A stretch of 49,737 nt of DNA from an uncultured Verrucomicrobia subdivision 3 bacterium (GTDB lineage Bacteria > Verrucomicrobiota > Verrucomicrobiia > Limisphaerales > UBA11358): the NCBI GenBank assembly GCA_903944085.1, contig CAJAQO010000118.1, positions 1-49,737 of the forward strand, written 5' to 3'. Made by a program: the position numbers and the translations under genes. The notes under the pieces are model-generated. The model saw only the letters and a program-made list of their open reading frames with translations, was not told the origin of the DNA and did not search any database. Positions 4,177 through 37,803 of the stretch are shown here, piece after piece (within the stretch, counting starts at the first letter, position 1; the number at the start of each line of letters is the position of its first letter).

Positions 4177-4200
4177 GATTTACTGGCAGTTTTACTGGCA
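4177..4200 (+). repeat. Left 24-bp repeat with two TTTACTGGCA boxes (putative integrase arm sites)
   Basis: The 24 bases are identical to 37780-37803 and in the same orientation. Each contains TTTACTGGCA twice, 11 bp apart. Paired direct repeats inside both ends, about 104 bp and 63 bp from the short core, are laid out like the arm-type binding sites of lambda- and L5-type integrases. Alternatively the 24-mer is itself the duplicated attachment core. Confidence 0.7.
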
Positions 4201-4363: not shown

Positions 4364-6418
4364 GTGGCATCAGCTTTTGCATCATCAAGCGTGCAACGCC
4401 AAACACCCCAAAGCCGCCGCCCCGCATGGGTGACGTTGTTGGTGTTTTTGCTGGTTGCCATACCCGCCTTCGCCAACGAAAAGCCGGATGATTTTACCGC
4501 CTATGCCGGTTCGGCAAGCTGCCTGGATTGTCACCGCGCCGATTACGACCTGTGGGCGCAGTCTCACCACGCGCTCGCGGAACGGTCCTTGCGGACGGCC
4601 ACCGATCAAGCGGCTTTTGTCCCAGCACGTTCCATCAAGCACGGCGATGAAACCACCGCCTTTCAAGCCACGAATGGCATTTTTCAAATCGTCACGCTTG
4701 GCCCGGACAGCAACCGTCAGCCTTACCGCGTCGAGCGGGTCTTCGGTCACGACCCGCTTATCCAGTTTTTAACGCCCTTTCCCGGTGGCCGCTACCAAGT
4801 GCATGAAGCCTCTTACGATCCAAAATCAAACCAATGGTTTTACGTCTATGGCGACGACTTCCGCAATCCCGGTGAATACGGACATTGGGCAGGACGGGGC
4901 ATGAATTGGAATTCCCAATGCGCCGAATGTCACAATACCCGGCTGCATAAAAATTACGATGCTGCGACGGACAGCTATCACACAACGCTGGCGGAAATGG
5001 GTGTGGGCTGTGAAGCCTGTCACGGCCCGCTCAAAGCCCATGTTGAGTGGCGCAATGCCCATACCAACACCACGCTGCTTGACCCGACCGTTTTCAAATT
5101 GTCCCCAGCGCGCATCGTCGGCCTGTGTGGTTCCTGCCATTCGCGCAACACTGACTTGACGGAAAATTTCAAGCCGGGCGATTCTTTTTACGATCACTAC
5201 GCGCTGGAAATTCTGGACGGCGATAAACGCTGGTATGCCGACGGGCAAATCAAAGATGAGGATTATGAGTTTGAAGCGTTCCTCGGCAGCAAGATGTATC
5301 AGGACGGCGTAACCTGCTTGGACTGCCACAATCCACATTCCTACAAAAATACTCTGGCTGGAAACGATCTTTGTATGCGCTGTCACATTGGCGGGTATCC
5401 CAAAGCGCCGAAAATTGACCCCGTTACCCATAAGCATGATTGCAAAAGCGATTGCATTGACTGTCACATGCCGGTCACGGTCTATATGCAACGGCACCCG
5501 CGCCGTGACCATGGCTTTACTATTCCCGACCCGCTGTTGACGAAAGAATTACAAATTCCGAACGCCTGCAATCGTTGCCATGCCGACAAAACAGCCGATT
5601 GGTCGTTAAAGTATGCCGATGAATGGTATGGCACAAACATGAACCGGCCAACGCGTGAGCGGGCGCGGTGGATCGCGGCGGGTGAAAACCGGGAAGCCGG
5701 CGCGCAAACCAAATTGATTGGCCTCTTGGCCGATACCAATCAGCCGGCATATTGGCGGGCGGTGGCGGCAACTTTCTTGGAACGATGGGCGACGGAACCG
5801 GCAACCCAAACGGCGTTGCTTTCGCAATTGAAAAATGGGCATCCGCTGGTTCGTGAAAAAGTCGTGCGGTCGCTGGAACCGGCGCTGGTGGATACGAATG
5901 TGCTGGCGGCATTGCAACCGCTCTTAAACGACCCGTTGCGAAATGTGCGGGTGGCTGCGGCCTGGGTGCTACGGGCGACTGTGGATATGCAAGGCAAGGC
6001 CGGACAGGATTTGCAGCGGATGCTGGATTTGGAAGCTGATCAGCCAATAGGACAATTCGAGGAAGCCATATTACTCTTATCCCGCCAGCAACCAGCGGAA
6101 GCATTGGGGCATCTCAAAAAAACAACGGCTTGGGACAAACTTTCGCCGCCGTTCCTCTGCACCCAGGCGCAAGTGCAAGACCAGTTGGGACAGTTGCCGG
6201 AAGCATTGAAGACTCTCGACCAAGCGGAAGCCGGCGTGCCGGATGATCCGCACATTCCCTACGTGCGGGCGATGATTCTGGCGCGAAATGGGCGTAACGA
6301 TGAGGCGCGGGCGGCGGCAAAGCGAGCGTTGGAAATACAACCTAATTTCAAATCTGCGTGGGAATTATTGCAAAGGATGCCGTCTAAAAGTCCGCAACCG
6401 ATTTATCAGACGAGATGA
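4364..6418 (+). CDS. Octaheme cytochrome c with HEAT-like and TPR C-terminus
   Basis: A 684-residue secreted protein. A signal peptide (LLVFLLVAIPAFA) precedes eight CXXCH haem c sites, in order CLDCH (about residue 53), CAECH, CEACH, CGSCH, CLDCH, CMRCH, CIDCH and CNRCH. The C-terminal 270 residues look like HEAT-type helical repeats (NVRVAAAWVLRA), then TPRs (LPEALKTLDQAEAG, NDEARAAAKRALEIQPNF). It is likely a periplasmic electron-transfer protein of the cytochrome c554/multihaem class; the substrate is unknown. The listed start is GTG; an internal GTG (VTLLVF) would also keep the signal peptide. It lies 164 bp inside the left 24-bp repeat. One copy of the dispersed 19-bp repeat encodes SLRTAT in it. 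Its 3' end overlaps the convergent gene by 13 bp. Confidence 0.88.
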   Translation: MASAFASSSVQRQTPQSRRPAWVTLLVFLLVAIPAFANEKPDDFTAYAGSASCLDCHRADYDLWAQSHHALAERSLRTATDQAAFVPARSIKHGDETTAFQATNGIFQIVTLGPDSNRQPYRVERVFGHDPLIQFLTPFPGGRYQVHEASYDPKSNQWFYVYGDDFRNPGEYGHWAGRGMNWNSQCAECHNTRLHKNYDAATDSYHTTLAEMGVGCEACHGPLKAHVEWRNAHTNTTLLDPTVFKLSPARIVGLCGSCHSRNTDLTENFKPGDSFYDHYALEILDGDKRWYADGQIKDEDYEFEAFLGSKMYQDGVTCLDCHNPHSYKNTLAGNDLCMRCHIGGYPKAPKIDPVTHKHDCKSDCIDCHMPVTVYMQRHPRRDHGFTIPDPLLTKELQIPNACNRCHADKTADWSLKYADEWYGTNMNRPTRERARWIAAGENREAGAQTKLIGLLADTNQPAYWRAVAATFLERWATEPATQTALLSQLKNGHPLVREKVVRSLEPALVDTNVLAALQPLLNDPLRNVRVAAAWVLRATVDMQGKAGQDLQRMLDLEADQPIGQFEEAILLLSRQQPAEALGHLKKTTAWDKLSPPFLCTQAQVQDQLGQLPEALKTLDQAEAGVPDDPHIPYVRAMILARNGRNDEARAAAKRALEIQPNFKSAWELLQRMPSKSPQPIYQTR
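4585..4603 (+). repeat. Dispersed 19-bp repeat, copy 1 (inside cytochrome gene)
   Basis: GTCCTTGCGGACGGCCACC, exact consensus. The first twelve bases form a GTCC/GGAC mini-hairpin. In this frame it encodes SLRTAT. Other copies are at 28042, 30580, 30851 and 31882, with an inverted variant at 28076-28094. Confidence 0.8.
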
Positions 6419-24063: not shown

Positions 24064-24625
24064 ACAACAGCCGCGTGAGAGCAACAAAGCCTTTGCGGCC
24101 TTCAGCTTGTATCTGAGCCTGGGGGCGGAACGGTCATTAGACGTGGTGCGAAAAAAGTTAGGCAAGAGTGCGAGACTCATCCAACGCTGGTCGGGCAAAT
24201 TTGACTGGACTGAACGGGTGGCGGCACATGGCGCACACCTCGCCGTCGTCGAACGTGAAGCCATCGAGGCCGCCGCGCGCGGCAAGGCGGCGGAATGGTC
24301 CAGCCGCGAACAAAAATTGCGCGAAACCGAATGGGCCATGCACGAAGCCGCCATTGCCGCCGCGAAAAAAGGGCTGGCTGCCTACATGGAGCGCGAAAAA
24401 GTTTATGCCAACCTGGCCGACATTGCGCGGATGCTGGAAATCGCCAGCAAGCTGGGGCGGCTGGCGACGGGTCTCGGCACCGACGGCGAAGGTCGGAAAG
24501 GCGAGGATCTGCCGTCGTTGCGCGTCGAGGTTACGGTCGCCCTGGAAAAGATTTATGGCGAGCCGTTGCCGGGGGAAATTGTGGACGTGGAAACCGTGGC
24601 CGCACTACCAGAGAAAACACCATGA
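24047..24625 (+). CDS. Phage terminase small subunit
   Basis: A 192-residue protein. The N-terminus has the DNA-binding pattern of one small-terminase family: ESNKAFAAFSLYLSLGAERS, KKLGKSARLIQRWSGKFDW, ERVAAHGAHL. A long Ala-, Glu- and Lys-rich helical oligomerisation region follows. It should recognise the element's packaging site and load the large subunit. The large-subunit start overlaps its stop (ATGA at 24622). Confidence 0.85.
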   Translation: MPLPFEQQPRESNKAFAAFSLYLSLGAERSLDVVRKKLGKSARLIQRWSGKFDWTERVAAHGAHLAVVEREAIEAAARGKAAEWSSREQKLRETEWAMHEAAIAAAKKGLAAYMEREKVYANLADIARMLEIASKLGRLATGLGTDGEGRKGEDLPSLRVEVTVALEKIYGEPLPGEIVDVETVAALPEKTP

Positions 24626-26034
24626 CACCCTGGGAACGCTATTTTCTGATTGGCCGGCGGGCGGGTTGCCCGAAGGATCAAATGCAACGCTTCGAGCGGG
24701 CCGACGTGATTTTGCAGCAGCGGCAACTGGTCGCCAGTGCCGCTGCGCGATTGTGCGATGCGCCCGACGGGCCGACGGCCATTGGTTACGGCGGCGCGCG
24801 CGGCGGCGGGAAATCGCATTGGTTGCTGGCACAAATGGGGGCGGATGATTGCCAGCGCGTGCCAGGGCTGAAATGCCTGCTGCTGCGGAAAGTCGGCAAG
24901 GCCAACCTGGAACACTTCGAGGATTTGCGGCGGCGGTTGTTCGGCAAGCTGAAACACGATTTCTCGGCATTTCGCGGCGTGCTGACGTTTGCCAACGGTT
25001 CGCGGATCATCGCCGGTCATTTTCAGAATGAAAAAGACATTGATGCCTATCTCGGTTTGGAATACGACGTGATTGGCATCGAGGAGGCGACAACTTTGAC
25101 GGCGCGAAAATACCAGGACATTTCAACCTGCTGCCGCACGTCCAAGTCAAACTTCCGTCCGCGCATTTATTCGACGACGAATCCCGGCGGTGTCGGTCAC
25201 GGCTGGTATCGGACGAAGTTCGTCCTCCCCATGTTGGAAAAGCGGGAAACTGAAACCCGCTTCATCCCCGCGCGCGTCACGGATAACCGCTGGAACAATC
25301 CCGAATACGTCCGCGTGCTGCAAAACCTTTCCGGCTGGCAAAAACGCGCGTGGCTGGACGGCGATTGGGACATTGCCGCCGGGCAGTATTTTACCACGCT
25401 GCGCCGTGAGGTTCACGTCGTCCAGGACTTCGACGAAACGCGCGCCCGTGAATGGTTTGTGGCGCTGGATTACGGTTTTGCACATTACACCGTCGCGCTG
25501 CTCGGCTGCACCGATGGCGACGGGAACATTTTCGTCGTGGACGAACACACCGAACGGTTGTGGCTGCCGCAACGTCACGCGGCGGCGATCAAGGCGATGC
25601 TTGCCCGGCATAAAATCGGCGAGCGCAAACTTGGACTCGACGATTTGAAACGGATTGTTGCCGGTGCCGACGTGTTTTCGCGCCAGAGCGACGGGACCAC
25701 CATCGCCGCGCAATATGCGAAGCATGGGCTTTCGCTGCGCGTGGCAAACACTGATCGCGTGAACGGTTGGGCGGAAATTTTAACCCGGTTCGGCGAGCCG
25801 AACGTCGGCCTCGCAGAGGGCGGCACCCGCCCGACGCTTTTCATTCACCAGCGTTGCGGTCGCCTGCTGGAAACTTTACCGGCGTTGCAACACGATCCGA
25901 ACCGGCCGGAAGATGTTTTGAAAGTGGACGCCGACGAGGACGGCATCGGCGGCGACGATTGCGCGGACGCGCTGCGGTATCTGGTGGCGACGAAATCGCG
26001 AGCGGTAACGCAAAGAAAGTTGCGCGGGTTTTGA
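24622..26034 (+). CDS. Phage terminase large subunit
   Basis: A 470-residue packaging motor from the ATG at 24622; the frame stays open upstream to 24295 but that part is out-of-frame shadow of the small subunit. The ATPase domain has Walker A GGARGGGKS (residues 57-65), Walker B YDVIGIEEAT (about 148-157) and the motif III-like IYSTTNPGG. The nuclease domain has FVALDYGFAHYTVALLG, ADVFSRQSDG and GGDDCADALRYL, supplying the RNase H-type acidic residues. All key motifs look intact, so packaging should be functional. A terminator follows at 26214. Confidence 0.92.
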   Translation: MTPWERYFLIGRRAGCPKDQMQRFERADVILQQRQLVASAAARLCDAPDGPTAIGYGGARGGGKSHWLLAQMGADDCQRVPGLKCLLLRKVGKANLEHFEDLRRRLFGKLKHDFSAFRGVLTFANGSRIIAGHFQNEKDIDAYLGLEYDVIGIEEATTLTARKYQDISTCCRTSKSNFRPRIYSTTNPGGVGHGWYRTKFVLPMLEKRETETRFIPARVTDNRWNNPEYVRVLQNLSGWQKRAWLDGDWDIAAGQYFTTLRREVHVVQDFDETRAREWFVALDYGFAHYTVALLGCTDGDGNIFVVDEHTERLWLPQRHAAAIKAMLARHKIGERKLGLDDLKRIVAGADVFSRQSDGTTIAAQYAKHGLSLRVANTDRVNGWAEILTRFGEPNVGLAEGGTRPTLFIHQRCGRLLETLPALQHDPNRPEDVLKVDADEDGIGGDDCADALRYLVATKSRAVTQRKLRGF

Positions 26035-26213
26035 TCTTCGCGCGCCTGGCTGCGAGTTCGTGCGAGCGGCCATTCGCGGCGAACTGTGGAATGAGTGGAC
26101 GATTGGAATAGTGAGCCGTTTCCCTGCGCGCGAAACGTGAAGGATTCCAAAGGGCCATGACCTTTGGCGCGTGGGTTTGGGCGCGGCGTGAGCGCCCAAC
26201 CGCCGAATGGCTG

Positions 26214-26292: not shown

Positions 26293-27021
26293 CTATGCTG
26301 TCGGGCGGATGGTGCGGAATGGGGCGGTGATTTCCTCAAACCACGGATGGCGCTGGATGGCATGGGCGAGTTTTTCGATGCGGAAATAAACCGTGCTCTG
26401 GCCGATGCCGTGGCGGTCGGCGTAACTGTGAACGCGGGCCAGTGTGCCCGGCTCGCGCACGGCGAGCATGATGTCGTAAAGCTCGCGGTCTGCTTCTGGA
26501 ATCATAGCATGAATGGCGCGGCGGGCGTCACGGCGGGCGGCGTATTCATCGGGCGTGATGTGGCTGGCGTCATGCAACTGACTGGCGCGAATACTGCCGG
26601 TGTCGTCTTCGCTGTCATCGGTCACGATGGGCTGGTCGGTGATGTGGCGCTGCTGCTCCTTCCGGCTCATGTAACTCAAAACGGCGTGGCTGATCTGCTG
26701 CTGATTGAATTGCGCCTTGCCGCTCTGGTTGAAATAGCGGGCGGACGCGCCAAGCTCTTTGTTGGTGAGATAATCAAGTGCCTCGTCAACGGCAATGTCA
26801 CTGGTGCCGAGTCCGTAACGGTCAAGGGCGCGGGCGACGCGGGCACGCAAGGCGGCGGACTGGTGAATGTCAGACTCAAAGGCCAGCCAGTCGTCATGCT
26901 GGCGGGCGGTGTCAATTTCGGCATCCCACTTGCGCGGGGCTGATGGTGCGGGGGAAACCTGACCAGAAAAGGAAGTCATAAAAAAGGTGGGCGCACTGTC
27001 ACTGCGCCCGTGATGCTTCAT
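26293..27021 (-). CDS. Sigma-like HTH regulator, antisense to the packaging operon
   Basis: A 242-residue protein. I chose the ATG at 27021 because it overlaps the stop of the upstream gene (ATGA). The middle (DEALDYLTNKELGASARYF, QQQISHAVLSYMSRKEQ) is helical. The C-terminus, YDIMLAVREPGTLARVHSY then ADRHGIGQSTVYFRIEKL, reads as a region-4-like helix-turn-helix of sigma-related phage activators. It could switch on late genes. It is transcribed against the terminase and head genes, the second gene of a two-gene operon. The family assignment is by pattern only. Confidence 0.55.
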   Translation of the reverse strand: MKHHGRSDSAPTFFMTSFSGQVSPAPSAPRKWDAEIDTARQHDDWLAFESDIHQSAALRARVARALDRYGLGTSDIAVDEALDYLTNKELGASARYFNQSGKAQFNQQQISHAVLSYMSRKEQQRHITDQPIVTDDSEDDTGSIRASQLHDASHITPDEYAARRDARRAIHAMIPEADRELYDIMLAVREPGTLARVHSYADRHGIGQSTVYFRIEKLAHAIQRHPWFEEITAPFRTIRPTA

Positions 27022-27440
27022 GCGGCTTTCTGGTCGGCGGGGTAATAGCTGGAATACTTTTCGTGCGGGTCTTGGAAACCGCGCAAGCGGAACGCGCCGC
27101 ACGGGTGCTGCCACGCTTGGCGCTCGCGGTTCCAATGAAAGCCAAGCTGCGCCAACTGCTGCCGCAACTCCGGCGCGGGCGTCTCGCGGAACGCAACCCA
27201 AATCCATTTCCCGACAACCTCGGCAAGATTGAACAAACCCGGATTAGCATTTTTCAAAAGCTCCAAAACTTTTGGAGTGGGCAAGGTGCGGTTTTTCTTC
27301 CGCGCCTCGGTGTCAATCGGAAGTCGGGTGTCCGGTTTGGCTTCCGGTGCTGCCGTGGCCTGCGCCTGCGGCGCGGGCTGCTGTGATTGCTTCGATTCTT
27401 GAGGGAGCCTGTTTGATTTTTTTTGTGATGTAGTTTTCAT
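27018..27440 (-). CDS. Mobile-element protein with 'W..F..LGF.W...R.AW' domain
   Basis: A 140-residue protein from the ATG at 27440. The first 70 residues are a Lys/Gln/Pro-rich disordered segment. The rest holds WIWVAFRETPAPELRQQLAQ, LGFHWNRERQAWQHPCG and a basic tail. This short domain recurs in plasmid and phage proteins, where it is often annotated only as a DUF. It is coupled to the sigma-like gene (ATGA). A long hairpin (27449-27620) lies just upstream of its start codon and could control its translation. Confidence 0.6.
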   Translation of the reverse strand: MKTTSQKKSNRLPQESKQSQQPAPQAQATAAPEAKPDTRLPIDTEARKKNRTLPTPKVLELLKNANPGLFNLAEVVGKWIWVAFRETPAPELRQQLAQLGFHWNRERQAWQHPCGAFRLRGFQDPHEKYSSYYPADQKAA

Positions 27441-27448
27441 GGTCTTTT

Positions 27449-27620
27449 TTTTTCTGCTCTGCTTGCCCCTCATCCGTCGGTCGCCTTGTTCACGAAACAG
27501 CCGCGCCCCCAGCCCTCCTGCATGGGCGTAGGCTTCAGAGGGAACCGTGCGAGGCGGGCTGGTGTCTTGGGCAAGGCCGTGACAAGGCGACTGACTGCTT
27601 GATGAGGGGATGCAGAAAAA
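27449..27620. repeat. 172-bp nested inverted repeat
   Basis: Outer arms TTTTTCTGC/GCAGAAAAA (27449-27457, 27612-27620). Next CCCCTCATC/GATGAGGGG (27466-27474, 27601-27609). Then a 13-bp stem GTCGGTCGCCTTG/CAAGGCGACTGAC (27476-27488, 27583-27595). CAGCC/GGCTG pairing continues inside. On the minus strand it would be a leader hairpin immediately before the start codon at 27440. Confidence 0.75.
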
Positions 27621-27896
27621 GCCGGACCTGAAAACGAAGCTGCCCACACAAAAAACCAACCCATTTTATTTTTCGAGCAACGCGAGCAAATCAACTTGGA
27701 ACGAAGTGAACCTATTCTAACCAGCGGCCTCGGCTGAATTGATTGACGTGAGTTTTACCACCGGCTGCATGAGCGTCAGCGGCGCGGTTGGCATGAAGGA
27801 TGCCCGCCAACTGGCGCGATGATTGCAGCGCAATGGGGAATTACGCGACCGCCGGGGACGGCGGGGCAATCAGTGTGACAGTGCAGCGGCGGGATA

Positions 27897-28025
27897 GCAC
27901 ACAACGCCACATTGTCTGACCTTAATTCCGGCACGAAGGGTCCCGGCACGGGGAGTTGTCGTGCCGATAAGAATTAAGGTGGAAGCGAAGCATGAGCGAC
28001 CAAACGGACAATGTGTGTTGTGTGC
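27897..28025. repeat. 129-bp nested inverted repeat with three helices
   Basis: Outer arms of about 20 bp (27897-27918 with 28005-28025) contain GCACACAAC and ACATTGTC with one small internal loop. The middle stem is CCTTAATTC/GAATTAAGG (27920-27928, 27971-27979). The inner stem is CGGCACGA/TCGTGCCG (27929-27936, 27959-27966), stacked directly on the middle one with a four-base bulge. Confidence 0.8.
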
Positions 28026-28039
28026 GGTCCCGGAAGCAA

Positions 28040-28096
28040 AGGTCCTTGCGGACGGCCACCATTGCCCGCCTTCGTGGTGGCCGTCTGCTAAGACCT
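28040..28096. repeat. Inverted pair of the dispersed repeat (BIME-like)
   Basis: 28040-28061 contains an exact copy of the dispersed 19-mer. 28075-28096 is its reverse complement with three changes, so the two 22-base arms form a hairpin with a 13-base loop. Paired inverted copies are how REP sequences are commonly arranged. Confidence 0.75.
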
Positions 28097-28183
28097 GTTC
28101 CTTCATGCCAACCGCGCCGCGCTGGTGACTTCGACTTTCGGCGTGGCCGCATCGTTCCCGGCGTCGTCGCGCCAGCGCGACAG

Positions 28184-28300
28184 CCAATTCTCTGACTCCA
28201 CGACGGCAGAGCGTAGGGCGTGGGCTGCGACGCGATGGCAACGCGGGCGCGCTCGGCAGACCTGCCCGCAGCCTGCCGCCGTGGTGTCAGACCAATTTGG
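28184..28300. repeat. 117-bp inverted repeat with arms of about 25 bp
   Basis: Left arm 28184-28209 and right arm 28273-28300 pair as CCAATT/AATTTGG, TCTGAC/GTCAGA and CCACGACGGCAG/CTGCCGCCGTGG with few mismatches. The enclosed 63 bases contain further GC-rich pairing (GGCTGCG/CGCAGCC runs into the stem base). Directly followed by another hairpin (28309-28381). Confidence 0.75.
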
Positions 28301-28653
28301 TTTTACCAGTGAGTTCGGTTGTTTCCGTCCGCCGCAATGTAGCCTGCGAAATGAAGGCGGTGCGGAAATGGCCGATCTCACGGTTATTGGCAGGCGTGCC
28401 TGCACCCACTTCGGCGACAGGCAGAGCCTCGCGCCGTAATGCCGATGTCTTGCCCGTGCGAAGCATCGCGGGCTAATTCTGATTTCTTGGCCGGACGAAG
28501 TCGCGCGGCCTGGAATCTTTGGGGCACCGCTGTCTTTGCCGGTCTCGGCAGTTTGCGGCCGTCGGAATGAGTGAAAGCATCCCGCGTAATCTGTGTAGCG
28601 GAGTGCGGCAGCGAATGGAGCGGATGCAAATTGATGAGTCCGGCCAGTGGTGC

Positions 28654-28729
28654 GGCGGAACCGTGCCGATGCTTGGCGCGGCGTGAGCCACGCTGGCGAT
28701 CATAGCGCAAGTGTCGGCTCGGTGACGCC
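28654..28729. repeat. Four-tier nested hairpin
   Basis: From outside: GGCG/CGCC, ACCGTGCCGA/TCGGCTCGGT (28660-28669, 28714-28723, one mismatch), CTTGGCGC/GCGCAAG with a bulge, and a tip GCGTG-AGC-CACGC (28681-28693). Confidence 0.65.
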
Positions 28730-28984
28730 GGGCGGTTTTCTTTTTCCCGTCGAGGAGCGATAGCGACGAGGTTTTTCCCGCCTGACCCCGCGCCTAAAAC
28801 CATCCGCCAACCAGCAACGGTTGGATGGCACGCAAACCATTCGACAACCTGCGATGCCCGCCGCGTGCGCGGGGTAGCGAAAGGCACGCCGAGAGTGACG
28901 TTCGCAAACCAAAGATGGCGTGCCGGTGCTGGCGTAGCGGTGGCGTCAGCCGCCGCCGCCAGCATGAGCGTCAGGCGTCCGCGC

Positions 28985-29032
28985 ACGCGCCACCTGGCAT
29001 TCGTCAATGGAAACCGTGAAGAGGTGGCGCGT
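28985..29032. repeat. Perfect 11-bp inverted repeat
   Basis: ACGCGCCACCT (28985-28995) and AGGTGGCGCGT (29022-29032) pair perfectly across a 26-base loop. It is the last strong stem before the PUR-domain gene; 29033-29307 is AT-richer and may hold that gene's promoter. Confidence 0.7.
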
Positions 29033-29307
29033 TCGTCATTATTGAGCGCACAGTGATTCAGGAACGGAGCGCGAGCCAATTTATCTGTTGAGCAACGCGA
29101 ACTAATTTTGTTTTCAAGCGCGTCCGAATTACCGACCGCATTCACATTAACCACGGCGCACGACTTCACCTGGTTGCGCGAGTCGCGAACGAATTGAAAT
29201 ATGAAAATCAGTGTGACGCCAAACCATTGCGGGACTCGAATGGCAGCAAAATTCACAATACCGCTTTCAACTTGTGCGGCGTGCGATTTGTGTTTATTGA
29301 TGCGTTT

Positions 29308-29634
29308 ATGATTAGCAACGAACGGCCTTCACCTTACGGACGCCAACCTTATCGGCAACCGTATCATCAGCCCTACGCGCAGCAACCGCCGCGTCCTTTC
29401 GTGCAGGAAGACACGCTGAAAGCTGGCGAAATTCAAATTGAACGGAAATTTTTTGTGCTAACGTTGAAGGAAAATCCGCGTGGCCGGTTTCTGCGTATAT
29501 CCGAGGAGGTTGGTAGCAAACGCAATTCCATCATCATTCCCGCCACCGGCTTGAACGACTTCAAAAAACTGCTGGATGAAATGGTGAAAGCATCCGACGA
29601 AATTCCGGCCAAGACCGAAACCGCCGGGAAATAG
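29308..29634 (+). CDS. PUR-domain (PUR-alpha-like) single-strand nucleic-acid-binding protein
   Basis: A 108-residue protein from the ATG at 29308; the open frame extends upstream to 29194 but that part is unlike the family. A Pro/Gln/Tyr-rich leader (PYGRQPYRQPYHQPYAQQ) precedes one PUR repeat: GEIQIERKFFVLTLKENPRG, RFLRISEEVG, SIIIPATGLNDFKKLLDEMV. Bacterial PUR proteins bind single-stranded DNA or RNA. It stands alone between two hairpin-dense non-coding tracts inside the head and packaging module, which makes those tracts its plausible ligand (inference). Confidence 0.82.
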   Translation: MISNERPSPYGRQPYRQPYHQPYAQQPPRPFVQEDTLKAGEIQIERKFFVLTLKENPRGRFLRISEEVGSKRNSIIIPATGLNDFKKLLDEMVKASDEIPAKTETAGK

Positions 29635-30328
29635 GCAGCCGGTTTTCAAATTGTCACGGTGATTTCAAGGCCAGCCGCTACCCGCACGCCTGCCCGCGAC
29701 GCGACCGGCGCAACCAACCGGTGACGGACAGGTAGCTGAACACGAACGGCTGCCACCACGGCAACGCTGGCCGAAACGCCGCCGGCTGGCCGCACGCACA
29801 CCAGAGCTGCACTGGCAACGTGACGCGACGATAGTAAAGCCCGCAAACTGCCGACTGCCAACGCTGCCACCGAAGGCCGACCGTGAGATACCAACGCCGG
29901 GCGGCCCTGCTGGAATGTCTGGTGTGTCTCATCATAATTTCTGTGAGACACACCAGACATGGAAGCAGGGACGCTGGCAGACACGAGAAGACCCGCGCGA
30001 CGAAAAACGCCGCCAGCCCGCAAGGCTCGTCACACTAACTTTGCCTTTGCCGGAGCGAAGTGGCAGCAAGCCAGCGGATCAGCAGACAGCGTGACAGCCT
30101 GGGTTGCGCCTGCGGCAGGCTGGCGCGATGGCTGCCCGCTGGATGGCGAACGAAGCGGTGCTGGCGGTTGCGAATTACACGCCGGTAACTTTCTGGAAAA
30201 CCCGTCAAATAAAATGTTACACAAAATTATTCGCGCCTGTTCCGTGCAAGTGTCACGACGTTCGTGAGTATTCGCAGTCTTTTTCACCGCACAAAAATTT
30301 TCTGAAAAACCCGTGCTAGAGTCGCCGC
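29635..30328. other. Second hairpin-rich non-coding tract before the portal gene
   Basis: 694 bp with no supported gene. It holds CCTGCCCG...ACCGG/CCGGT...CGGACAGG (nested, about 29688-29731), the long inverted repeat 29905-29970, CAGCCTG/CAGGCTG near 30095-30122, and a TCACGA-CGT-TCGTGA hairpin near 30253-30267 followed by a T-rich stretch. The last 60 bp are AT-richer and probably contain the promoter and leader of the portal operon. Confidence 0.5.
29905..29970. repeat. 66-bp inverted repeat with 26-base arms
   Basis: 29916-29930 (TGTCTGGTGTGTCTC) and 29945-29959 (GAGACACACCAGACA) are a perfect 15-bp match. Pairing extends outward to CCCTGC/GCAGGG, giving 26-base arms (29905-29930, 29945-29970) with three mismatches around a 14-base AT-rich loop. 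It could be an operator, a structured RNA element or a packaging signal. Confidence 0.85.
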
Positions 30329-31879
30329 GTGCCGGCGAACTCCACACATCCTGATTACGATGCCAACCTGCCAGGGTGGTTGCGGGCGCGCGATGTCTTC
30401 GCCGGTGAAGATGCCGTCAAAGCTGCTGCCGAAAAATATCTGCCACGTCTCGACTGTCAGGACGACAAGGAATATCTCGCTTACAAAAACCGCGCTTCTT
30501 TTTTCAACGCCTCCGCTCGCACCGCCGATGGCTTCGTCGGCCTGATCTTCCGTCGTGATCCAACCTTCAAACTTCCTGAGTCCTTGCGGACGGCCACCAG
30601 TGGCGGCGTGGCGGATGCGCTCACTGAATTCGTGGAAGATGCCGACCTGCTCGGCACGTCCTTGTCTTCCTTCTCGAAAAAACTCGTCACGGAAATCATC
30701 AACGTCGGTCGTGCCGGCACCTTGATTGACTGGAACAATGAAGCCGAGCAACGCGCTTACGCCGTCGCCTACACCGCTGAAGACATCATCAACTGGCACA
30801 CGGAACGGGTGAATGGTCGCAACGTCCTCTCGCTGGTCGTCCTCAAGGAAGTCCTTGCGGACGGCCACCTTGATCCTTACGAGCCGGAAGCAATCCAGCA
30901 GCTTCGCGTCCTCAAACTCGTGCCACCGCAATCTGCGACTGACGCCAAAGCCGAATGGTCTTACCAAGTGGAAATCTGGCAATACCTTTCCGATGGTCAA
31001 AACACTTCTGCCACTCGCAATCGCGGCAAAAAGAAATGGAAACTCACTGACACCATCACGCCCTTGCGTCTAGGGAAACCTCTGCCGCTGATTCCTTTTG
31101 TCTTTCACGGTCCACGTCACTCCCTGCCGGAAGTGGACAAGGTTCCACTGACGGACATCATCGCCATCAATCTGGATCACTACCGGCTGAGTGCCGACTA
31201 CAAGCATGGGATGCACTTCACCGCCTTGCCTACCGCTTGGGTGTCTGGCTTCGACAAGAACTCCAGTCTTCGCATCGGTAGCAGCACGGCATGGGTCGCC
31301 GAAACTCCTGGTGCCACGGCTGGCTTTCTTGAATTTCACGGTCAAGGTCTGTCCACCTTTGAACGTGCAATGGATCGCGATGAACAGCTCATGGCCGTTC
31401 TCGGCACACGAATGCTCGAATCGCAGAAACGTGTTGGTGAAACTGCTGCTGCCATCGAACTCCGTCAGTCCGGCGAAAACTCCATCCTGAACACCGTGTC
31501 TTTAAGCGTAAGCGCTTCGCTGACGCAAGTGCTTCGCTGGGTGTATTGGTGGAACTCCACCGAGCCGATTCCTGATGCCATTGGTCCTGACCTTGTCCTC
31601 GCCAGCCTGAACACCGACTTCAGTGTCACCGGCATGTCGGCGCTGGAGATCACCGCACTGGTGGCCGCGTGGCAGGCCGGTGCCATCAGCCAGGCAACCA
31701 TGCTCGACCTGTTCCGCGCCGGTGAAGTCATCGCACCTGGCCGCACCAACGATGAAGAAATCAAACTGCTGGCAACGCAGAAAGTCCGTGCCGGACTGGC
31801 CGCTATTCCGACGGCAGTAGTCCCGACGACTCCGCCCGGTGATGTGAACGCCACTCCGGTATCTGTAACCGTGAAATAA
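30329..31879 (+). CDS. Phage portal protein, DUF4055-like
   Basis: A 516-residue protein starting at GTG 30329. DUF4055-type features: DYDANLPGWLRARDVFAGED, YLPRLDCQDDKEYLAYKNRA, FNASARTADGFVGLIFRRDP, ADLLGTSLSSFSKKL, VGRAGTLIDWN and YRLSADYKHGMHFTALPTAW. These families occupy the portal position in head modules: a dodecameric ring through which DNA enters. Two copies of the dispersed 19-bp repeat are translated in it, in different frames (SLRTAT and EVLADGHL). It is the first gene of the head operon. Confidence 0.82.
   Translation: MPANSTHPDYDANLPGWLRARDVFAGEDAVKAAAEKYLPRLDCQDDKEYLAYKNRASFFNASARTADGFVGLIFRRDPTFKLPESLRTATSGGVADALTEFVEDADLLGTSLSSFSKKLVTEIINVGRAGTLIDWNNEAEQRAYAVAYTAEDIINWHTERVNGRNVLSLVVLKEVLADGHLDPYEPEAIQQLRVLKLVPPQSATDAKAEWSYQVEIWQYLSDGQNTSATRNRGKKKWKLTDTITPLRLGKPLPLIPFVFHGPRHSLPEVDKVPLTDIIAINLDHYRLSADYKHGMHFTALPTAWVSGFDKNSSLRIGSSTAWVAETPGATAGFLEFHGQGLSTFERAMDRDEQLMAVLGTRMLESQKRVGETAAAIELRQSGENSILNTVSLSVSASLTQVLRWVYWWNSTEPIPDAIGPDLVLASLNTDFSVTGMSALEITALVAAWQAGAISQATMLDLFRAGEVIAPGRTNDEEIKLLATQKVRAGLAAIPTAVVPTTPPGDVNATPVSVTVK
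30580..30598 (+). repeat. Dispersed 19-bp repeat, copy 3 (inside portal gene)
   Basis: Exact consensus GTCCTTGCGGACGGCCACC, read in frame as SLRTAT, as in the cytochrome gene. Confidence 0.8.
30851..30869 (+). repeat. Dispersed 19-bp repeat, copy 4 (inside portal gene)
   Basis: Exact consensus, but in a different reading frame from copy 3 (VLADGH). Conservation is therefore at the DNA level and not for the peptide. Confidence 0.8.
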
Positions 31880-32691: not shown

Positions 32692-33702
32692 ATGGCAAAG
32701 ACACAACTTGCAGACATCATCGTTCCAGCGCAGTTCGCTGGTTACGTCCTTCAGCGCACGGCGGAGAAATCCGACCTATTCCAATCCGGCATTGTCATCC
32801 GCACGCCGGATTATGACGAACGTGCGTCGCTCGGTGGCAATCAAGTCAACATGCCTCATTGGAATGATCTGACTGGCAACCGCCAGCCGCTTTCTGATTC
32901 GGCACCGCTCGTGCCGGCGAAACTGGTGGCTGACCAGGACATCGCCCGCATTCACAACGACGGCAATGCGTGGTCTTGGAATCATTTGGCGACGGTCGTT
33001 GCCGGTGATGATCCGGCGCTGGCGCTGGCGAACTTCATGGCTGACTATTGGAATCGCCAGAACCAATACATGCTCATCAACTCCCTCACCGGCGTTTTCG
33101 GTGCGGCGAGCATGGCGGGCAACCTGTTGGCAATCCAAAGTGAATCCGTTGCCGCACAGACTGCCTCCACTCGGCTGAATGGCGCGACGTTCGTGGATGC
33201 AACGCAACGGCTTGGCGACCGTGGCGACCGGCTCGTCGCGGTGGCGATGCACTCCGCAGTCGAGGCCGCGCTTCGCAAGCTCGACCTGATTGACTTCATT
33301 CCTGACAGCCAGGGTGAAGCGCAAATCCGCACGTTCCAAGGCCGGCGCGTGATCGTGGACGATGGCTGCCCGTCGCGCGCGGGCACGACTGACGGCTTGG
33401 TCTATACGACCTACCTGTTCGGCATGGGTTCGTTCGGCATGGGCTTCGCCGATCTGAATGGCGCTCCCGTCGAAGGCGGTCACGGCACGGAAGGCTGCGA
33501 AACGGCGCGTGACGCTCTCAATAGCGACACGTTCCTCGTCAACCGTCGCCGCTTCATCCTGCATCCGCGTGGCGTGAAGTTCACCAGTGCGAGCGTGGCC
33601 GGCGCGAATCCGACCAACGCTGAACTGGCCCTGGCCGCGAATTGGGTGCGCGTTTGGGAAAACAAGAACGTCCCCGTCGTGGCGGTCACTCACAACATCT
33701 AA
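32692..33702 (+). CDS. Major capsid protein
   Basis: A 336-residue protein starting MAKTQLADIIVPAQFAGYVL. Conserved-looking blocks are NMPHWNDLTGN, MADYWNRQNQYMLINSLTG, VAMHSAVEAALRKLDLIDFI, GRRVIVDDGCP, TTYLFGMGSFGMG and NRRRFILHPRGVKF. These match phage coat proteins of the HK97-fold type that are made without a delta domain and with a separate scaffold. Position after portal and scaffold supports this. A hairpin terminator follows the stop. Confidence 0.85.
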   Translation: MAKTQLADIIVPAQFAGYVLQRTAEKSDLFQSGIVIRTPDYDERASLGGNQVNMPHWNDLTGNRQPLSDSAPLVPAKLVADQDIARIHNDGNAWSWNHLATVVAGDDPALALANFMADYWNRQNQYMLINSLTGVFGAASMAGNLLAIQSESVAAQTASTRLNGATFVDATQRLGDRGDRLVAVAMHSAVEAALRKLDLIDFIPDSQGEAQIRTFQGRRVIVDDGCPSRAGTTDGLVYTTYLFGMGSFGMGFADLNGAPVEGGHGTEGCETARDALNSDTFLVNRRRFILHPRGVKFTSASVAGANPTNAELALAANWVRVWENKNVPVVAVTHNI

Positions 33703-33709
33703 ACCAATG

Positions 33710-33741
33710 GCGTGCCGGTTAGCGCCGGCACGCAGCTTTTT
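33710..33741 (+). terminator. Terminator/attenuator directly after the capsid gene
   Basis: GCGTGCCGG (33710-33718) pairs with CCGGCACGC (33725-33733), followed by AGCTTTTTG. It would lower expression of the downstream genes relative to the capsid gene, which is needed in the greatest amount. Confidence 0.7.
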
Positions 33742-33755
33742 GAGAAAGAAAATTT

Positions 33756-33983
33756 ATGGGCAAACTTCAACCTCGCAGTTTCGAGCGGATTCGTTCGGGC
33801 GAACAAATCCTGATTCCAACCTATGCCAACAACGCGGCGGCAATTGCTGCTGGCATCACGGCGGCGAAATATCCGCGTCGCATCATCTACCTGACTGCCG
33901 GCGGCACTGGCTCGGTGCCGTGCCTCGCCGTCAGCGATGGCACGAACTGGCGGCAAGTCGCCATTGGCGTCAACGCCATTTAA
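33756..33983 (+). CDS. Small head-module protein, unknown role
   Basis: A 75-residue protein (MGKLQPRSFERIRSGEQILI, RRIIYLTAGGTGSVPCLAVSDGTNWRQ). The C-terminal half has a short beta-strand pattern typical of small structural or decoration proteins that follow capsid genes. No family is named; the role is inferred from position. Confidence 0.55.
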   Translation: MGKLQPRSFERIRSGEQILIPTYANNAAAIAAGITAAKYPRRIIYLTAGGTGSVPCLAVSDGTNWRQVAIGVNAI

Positions 33984-33986
33984 CAC

Positions 33987-34163
33987 ATGGACAAACTCTA
34001 TCCAATCATTCGGCGAAAGCGGCGTCCGCTGGTGGCGGACGTTCCGCCGATTCCGACCAAAACCGAGCCGGTTCAACTTGTGGTGAAAACGCCAGAGGTT
34101 GAACCGGCGATAATTTCCAAGCCTGACCATGGCAAAAGCCCTGCCACAAATGCCGCGCCGTAA
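33987..34163 (+). CDS. Small Pro/Lys-rich hypothetical protein
   Basis: A 58-residue frame with an ATG three bases after the previous stop (MDKLYPIIRRKRRPLVADVP, then Pro-, Val- and Lys-rich sequence). It overlaps the next gene by 35 bp. The spacing favours it as real; function unknown. Confidence 0.45.
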   Translation: MDKLYPIIRRKRRPLVADVPPIPTKTEPVQLVVKTPEVEPAIISKPDHGKSPATNAAP

Positions 34164-37779: not shown

Positions 37780-37803
37780 GATTTACTGGCAGTTTTACTG
37801 GCA
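37780..37803 (+). repeat. Right 24-bp repeat with two TTTACTGGCA boxes
   Basis: Identical to 4177-4200 and in the same orientation. It lies between the integrase and the right copy of the short core. A GTTGC/GCAAC inverted repeat lies just before it. Either an integrase arm-site pair or the duplicated core itself. Confidence 0.7.

Follow-up and report, generated by a model that had tools for sequence, protein, structure and literature searches.

A giant structured RNA family in prophage-like elements of one Verrucomicrobia order

Introduction

The window analysed here, a whole stretch of 49,737 nucleotides (contig CAJAQO010000118.1) from an uncultured Verrucomicrobia subdivision 3 bacterium with a 5.8-Mb genome, holds a phage-like element at about 17.6-37.7 kb. 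Its genes follow the order resolvase, exonuclease, PIF1 helicase, primase, small and large terminase subunits and two antisense genes, as304 and as213, and continue after an intergenic tract with portal, scaffold, SPP1-like major head protein, head-tail adaptor and integrase. The tract (27441-30328, about 2.9 kb) lies between the start of as213 and that of the portal gene (30329), and the sole gene recognised in it encodes a PUR-domain protein. An initial annotation, made from the sequence alone, had described it as nearly 2.6 kb of non-coding DNA broken only by this gene and had proposed a giant structured RNA; gene calling indeed leaves about 2.56 kb without a recognised gene.

In the following, we describe the conservation, domain structure, distribution and genomic neighbourhood of this tract. 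It is near certain that it represents a giant structured RNA family, absent from the resources searched, that resides in prophage-like elements of one Verrucomicrobia order.

Covariation across homologous loci

As the initial annotation had suggested, we examined covariation among homologous tracts, and it is this evidence that carries our conclusion. An alignment of 30 hand-picked homologous loci over the full length, restricted to the columns of the window, was folded to 383 base pairs. Covariation was assessed by a G-test with average-product correction against 60 of 100 alignments simulated on the maximum-likelihood tree, a null that assumes one tree for elements that are mosaic. In the untargeted test, 17 column pairs pass a level at which 0.05 are expected; 12 of them lie within the predicted structure and span its whole length, from 27508-27569 to 28886-28921, and the remaining five are non-canonical. 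Of the 383 pairs in the structure, 61 covary significantly, compared with 4-6 once the 3' partners are shifted by 1-3 columns.

The individual domains, named A, B, B2, C1, C2 and M from 5' to 3' (Table 1), show the same behaviour. An alignment of 109 M sequences has two-sided changes in 27 of 36 pairs, with 96.7% of cells paired and none of 500 shuffles matching the observed values, although this alignment leans toward the structure because it was fitted to a covariance model. MAFFT alignments show two-sided changes in 15/36 pairs of M and in 23/38 pairs of a B subdomain (27888-28034). The M alignment designated A1 comprises 33 of 38 extracted sequences, omitting two truncated, one near-duplicate and two divergent ones. 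Furthermore, all six blocks are present in 19 of 92 regions around M matches, in identical order in all 19.

The helices thus covary in homologs in the full-length, M and B subdomain alignments alike, which supports the proposed giant structured RNA, and we have very little doubt that a conserved structured RNA exists here. The idea that the tract forms one RNA applies to 27772-29062, probably on the + strand; the strand of domain A is undecided, and 29690-30170 is a further structured block.

Table 1. Features of the tract and its flanking genes, in window coordinates
Feature	Position	Strand	Basis or remark
Terminase large subunit	24577..26034	+	PHROG 979, 5.7e-25; upstream neighbour
as304, conserved antisense gene	26293..26979	-	Shared among related loci
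as213, conserved antisense gene	27018..27440	-	Start (27440) is the tract edge
Domain A, nested hairpin at as213 5' end	27478..27593	undecided	8 significant covarying pairs
Domain A helices	27478-27486/27583-27593, 27490-27494/27578-27582, 27500-27508/27569-27577, 27509-27525/27545-27562		Covariation
RNA proper (B, B2, C1, C2, M)	27772 to about 29062	+	About 1.3 kb
Domain B	27779..28120	+	Covariation; covariance model R3
Domain B closing helix, 21-22 bp	27779-27800/28099-28120		Encloses 27804-27826/27866-27889 and 27890-27928/27971-28032
Inserted dispersed-repeat hairpin	about 28039..28097	+	Place empty in L012, which misses exactly 28039-28097
Domain B2	28138..28294	+	Long hairpin 28191-28212/28271-28291 with inner helices
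Domain C1	28309..28513	+	Hairpin 28309-28328/28362-28381 plus two smaller
Domain C2	28538..28729	+	Hairpins 28538-28563/28620-28644 and 28654-28679/28705-28729
Domain M (3' domain), most conserved	28751..29062	+	Covariation; covariance models R1, R2
M helices	X 28785-28793/28867-28875; P1 28863-28871/28980-28988; hairpins 28883-28890/28917-28924, 28926-28944/28949-28965
PUR-domain gene (single-stranded DNA/RNA-binding family)	29308..29634	+	Pfam PurA 6.9e-10; similar to Pur-alpha structures
Further structured block	29690..30170		Second half folds better on +, first half on -
Portal gene	30329..31879	+	PHROG 145, 4.5e-114; downstream neighbour

Folding and non-coding character

The long nested helices described in the initial annotation are present: a perfect 22-bp helix closes domain B, 22-nt arms pair at 28040-28061/28075-28096 and 31-nt arms (87% complementary) at 29901-29931/29944-29974, in addition to many shorter helices. 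The mean folding z-score of 300-nt pieces is -3.2 (+) and -2.1 (-) within the tract, compared with -0.8 (+) and -1.0 (-) in the remainder of 24.0-36.0 kb. Folding energy is insufficient as proof, since two pieces outside the tract, at 26101 (-4.2) and 33901 (-6.7), also fold strongly. Unusually strong folding (z -4.8) is also seen at 33700-34130, following the major head gene, in a region that nevertheless holds short open reading frames (ORFs).

Hidden protein genes were ruled out by codon phase, indels and ORF integrity. Mismatch rates are nearly equal across the three codon phases in four of five stretches tested and amount to 0.20/0.19/0.14 in the fifth (28750-29067). Among indels of up to 30 nt in five stretches, 17/140, 25/144, 96/410, 85/539 and 13/184 are divisible by three. 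The longest ORF (290 aa, - strand, 28384-29256) is interrupted by at least two in-frame stops in 26 of 30 alignment rows. A conserved terminator after C2, near 28745, was considered and rejected: it is present in the window, and a T-run is found in just 12 of 39 relatives against a background of about 11%, so that this terminator is enriched, but not general.

Domain architecture

The most conserved part of the RNA, domain M, contains a covarying pseudoknot in which helix X crosses helix P1. Counted as the best contiguous match within a short stretch, at least eight contiguous pairs of helix X form in 41 of 42 sequences, and all five outer pairs of P1 likewise form in 41 of 42. The outer ends of helix X vary (ACCC/GGGT, ACAG/CTGT, TCCG/CGGA, ACAT/ATGT), and it is these outer three to four pairs that carry the evidence for the pseudoknot, because the CGCG core is self-pairing.

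In the 5' domains, two-sided changes are seen in 13/19 pairs of B2 (five significant) and in 14/19 pairs of C1 (four significant). The outer helix of the first C2 hairpin has no significant pair and nine with two-sided changes; the second hairpin has three significant pairs. The 5'-most domain (27449-27630) is located at the start of as213 wherever it is seen, and domain A may be either a leader of as213 on the - strand or a part of the + strand RNA. The motif GA-GC-GNA-GC-GA recurs at 27674, 28754, 29044, 29088 and elsewhere in the window; it resembles mini-hairpins with tandem G-A pairs and, judged by eye, shows apparent compensating changes in relatives.

Relatives vary in three further components located at junctions between domains: the dispersed repeat at 28039-28097, the PUR gene and the block at 29690-30170. 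The block lies inside the RNA, between C2 and M, in L014, L015 and L084 (L numbers denote the loci compared here). The PUR gene was found in seven loci, in four on the strand of the RNA and in three on the opposite one, and appears to be an optional partner. Two other sites in the genome are similar to it (74% and 70% DNA identity), and it may therefore be a captured host gene. The dispersed repeat has a 19-nt core with eight exact copies in the genome, four of them in the window. The repeat (GTCCTTGCGGACGGCCACC and near copies) lies at window positions 4585, 17194, 28042, 30580, 30851 and 31882, and also occurs inside the portal gene, where the frame is intact.

Distribution

Used as a DNA query, 27640-29200 found matches in 26 of 59 genomes, the window's own and a few that match through the dispersed repeat alone included. 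Among 320 genomes of the host order, the M covariance model matched 38 and the B model (R3) 24, which together make 44 genomes. In broader samples, matches were obtained in 9 of 384 genomes of the class and 2 of 387 of the phylum, all of them members of that order. M occurs four times in the genome of the window.

Seven contigs in IMG/VR fit a DNA pattern of the RNA, five of which match the M model. In GTDB, 38 contigs hold the pattern; 31 match the model, whereas 7 labelled as other phyla do not. The GTDB contigs carrying the RNA are mostly metagenome-assembled genomes labelled Verrucomicrobia subdivision 3, Limisphaerales or Verrucomicrobiales. Named phage and plasmid collections yielded no DNA match to the tract. 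We also searched 20 loci with a major capsid protein gene and no previously known M: R2 matched L202, L195 and, weakly, L192. Six of these loci were searched with the B model, which matched L184 and L192, but not L194, L195, L196 or L203.

Genomic neighbourhood

Gene contexts were compared around 109 M matches from 100 sources, which were mostly picked for holding the RNA (98 of the 100 matched); the counts therefore describe the neighbours of the RNA rather than its frequency among phages, and a match does not equal an independent element. Similarity to the window's own head genes served to recognise those of other loci, and PHROG scans covered some of the proteins. A same-strand portal gene lies within 3 kb downstream of M in 45 of the 109 matches, and none is misplaced within that distance. 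Similarly, a same-strand large terminase gene is found within 7 kb upstream in 24 matches and downstream in none. The antisense genes as304/as213 lie upstream of M in 37 matches and downstream in 11, that is, the RNA occurs on either side of this pair. In these 11 matches it is not simply a portal leader, since as304/as213 follow it directly.

The RNA also resides outside head gene clusters. Among 24 loci flanked by 6 kb on each side, 9 have no recognised head or packaging genes. L025, one of these nine and from the window's own genome, carries an integrase followed by a primase-like gene, then the RNA, the as304/as213 pair and a second M ahead of a Fic-type gene, and no head gene was recognised in its 20 kb; L097 has the primase-like gene, the RNA, the antisense pair and the second M in common with it. 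The full RNA together with another M close to a gene is found in elements such as L025, L039, L089 and L106. In L025 (7699-18925), L026 (8034-9200) and L029 (4878-6410), which are compact elements or remnants with the RNA, a Fic-type gene takes the portal's usual place behind M; L026, L027, L032 and L113 adjoin host-type genes.

The antisense genes accompany the RNA in many elements; neither a protein family nor a solved-structure match was found for them. The integrase, terminase and head genes of the window are all the element's own, as expected of a capsid-forming satellite (similar to capsid-forming phage-inducible chromosomal islands, cf-PICI). Thirteen proteins between the major head protein and the integrase (window, L106, L121 and L012; adaptor excluded) had no PHROG match, and no tail family appeared among the 25 of 77 families listed in a wider scan of 58 proteins, with the ends of the element not fixed. 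An exact 24-nt direct repeat is present at 4177-4200 and 37780-37803, 33.6 kb apart, with its right copy just past the integrase. It is possibly an attachment site; the adjacent 17-nt repeats stand in reverse order.

Proposed function and alternatives

We give a probability of roughly one half to a role in trans, as an ornate RNA with M as a portable recognition domain. A large, modular + strand RNA of about 1.3 kb, comprising B, B2, C1, C2 and M, would be made late, fold into separate domains and bind a partner through M. It would act alone, as an oligomer or together with a protein partner (the optional PUR protein, for example), and might serve particle formation or a contest between elements that share a host. 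As a recognition domain, M would bind this same partner also where it stands by itself in front of a portal or Fic-type gene.

The + strand, on which the head genes are also read, is favoured overall, if not in every domain. Of 11 stretches folded as either strand, 8 do better as +, and kept wobble cells, counted by a symmetric procedure over seven domain alignments, number 243 (+) versus 79 (-). In tighter alignments, the counts are 39 versus 4 for M and 40 versus 21 for the B subdomain. The initial annotation had leaned toward a + strand RNA, which the wobble counts favour overall and in M; in C1 they are reversed and in domain A even.

Several observations weigh against the proposed + strand RNA acting in trans. 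Regarding the strand, 27630-27770 and 29690-29890 fold better on -, and one further stretch on neither. The +/- wobble counts are 25/24 in domain A, 28/24 in B and a reversed 7/15 in C1. The strictest strand-neutral count is weak (46 G-U versus 27 C-A cells, 32 versus 15 pairs, p 0.019), and shared pairs of the full-length alignment have 202 G-U versus 136 C-A. No promoter-like site was seen in 26.0-30.4 kb, where 1.1 are expected, and terminator-like sites there number 6, compared with 6.8 expected. Regarding the context, 81 M matches have 3 kb or more of downstream sequence, and a portal gene is present there in just 36 of them; in L144 it lies on the opposite strand at about 3.25 kb from M. 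L199, whose head protein is 38% identical, has a terminase-portal gap of 161 bp and no R1 or R2 match. Finally, some of the loci without recognised head genes may be decaying remnants.

The main alternative, which we regard as possible if clearly less probable, is that M is a cis-acting leader or antitermination element for the next gene, be it the portal operon or a Fic-type gene, and that the longer RNA is an elaborated leader. In its favour, 23 M matches have 1.2 kb or more of DNA upstream in which no B, B2 or C2 block was seen; 10 of these have a downstream portal gene, nine of them at 191-360 nt, which suits a role in cis and also counts against one in trans. Likewise, M is followed by a Fic-type gene of the same strand in L025 (at 326 nt), L029 (361 nt) and L026 (331 nt). 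M is thus probably also read in cis, given the short distance at which solitary M copies precede portal or Fic-type genes. By contrast, a leader does not account well for the 11 matches followed by the antisense genes, nor for elements such as L025, L039, L089 and L106, which hold the full RNA besides an M near a gene, and in our judgement the size and number of covarying helices go beyond what a leader usually needs. Our preference for a role in trans rests on two features of the full RNA: it is found both before and after the antisense pair, and it is present in elements where no head genes were recognised.

It appears improbable that the tract is a cis-acting DNA region, for example a packaging site that satellites retain for packaging by a helper. 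The position between terminase and portal genes and the retention in elements without recognised head genes would suit such a site, but the compensatory pairs with one-strand G-U wobbles in M and the adjoining domains point to RNA, and because of these wobble pairs a purely DNA role fits poorly. Known packaging sites are short, which we also count against this possibility.

Lastly, a cluster of unrelated dispersed palindromic repeats, which the initial annotation had named as one finding that would overturn a structured RNA, is very improbable and refuted for the tract as a whole: it describes the hairpin at 28039-28097 and recalls other insertions at domain junctions in relatives, but the remaining own-genome matches are copies of the same RNA blocks, PUR-like gene regions and the match of hairpin 29901-29974 to its own complement, the block order is kept in all 19 complete regions, and the helices covary.

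We also put forward, tentatively, a broader scenario. The 1.3-kb RNA and its portable 3' pseudoknot domain may constitute a new RNA system, in which this domain is a tag shared by prophages and satellites within a late-gene or particle-assembly circuit contested by helper and satellite. The tag would stand before the portal gene in head-encoding elements and before the Fic-type gene in elements without head genes.

Relation to known RNAs

The phi29 pRNA is an RNA linked to a packaging motor, and such a tie would explain the position between terminase and portal genes. The RNA described here is several times longer and has no Rfam match, and its element, unlike phi29, encodes an SPP1-like head protein and a two-subunit terminase.

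A covariance search of the whole window, on both strands, against Rfam 15 (GOLLD, ROOL, OLE, HEARO, pRNA and others) gave no match at gathering score, and a relaxed search over 27400-30330 gave six, all far below these scores; that there is no recognisable match to GOLLD or ROOL, as stated initially, was thereby confirmed. In kind, these two families are nonetheless the nearest. GOLLD is described as very large, rich in helices and found in phages or prophages, with a conserved 3' and a less conserved 5' region, resembling M and the 5' domains (PMC12286853). GOLLD is often located near tRNA islands (PMC12286853), whereas a tRNA scan of the window found no tRNA gene, a proximity that is usual for GOLLD and ROOL, not obligatory. 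GOLLD is somewhat over 800 nt long, compared with about 1.3 kb here, and the present RNA has the terminase-portal position. ROOL, too, is large and structured, contains pseudoknots and occurs in phages and prophages (PMC12286853), but differs in genomic place and hosts and in the lack of an Rfam match here. For phage ICP1 and the PLE satellites, the passages cited report that the most abundant transcripts of each are predicted to be non-coding, that of ICP1 being about 800 bases long (PMC7567579); they belong to other hosts and gene neighbourhoods, and we liken them by description, not by sequence or structure. No publication describing the present RNA family was found in the literature searched, which mostly excluded subscription journals.

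As far as the sources consulted go, few bacterial RNAs as large and complex as this one have been described, and what GOLLD and ROOL, the best known of those in phages, do is still an open question. The present family has a definite terminase-portal neighbourhood, a separable M domain and the ability to survive, in some elements, without recognised head genes, so that its role is testable by natural variants, and its roughly one hundred copies provide material for structural work.

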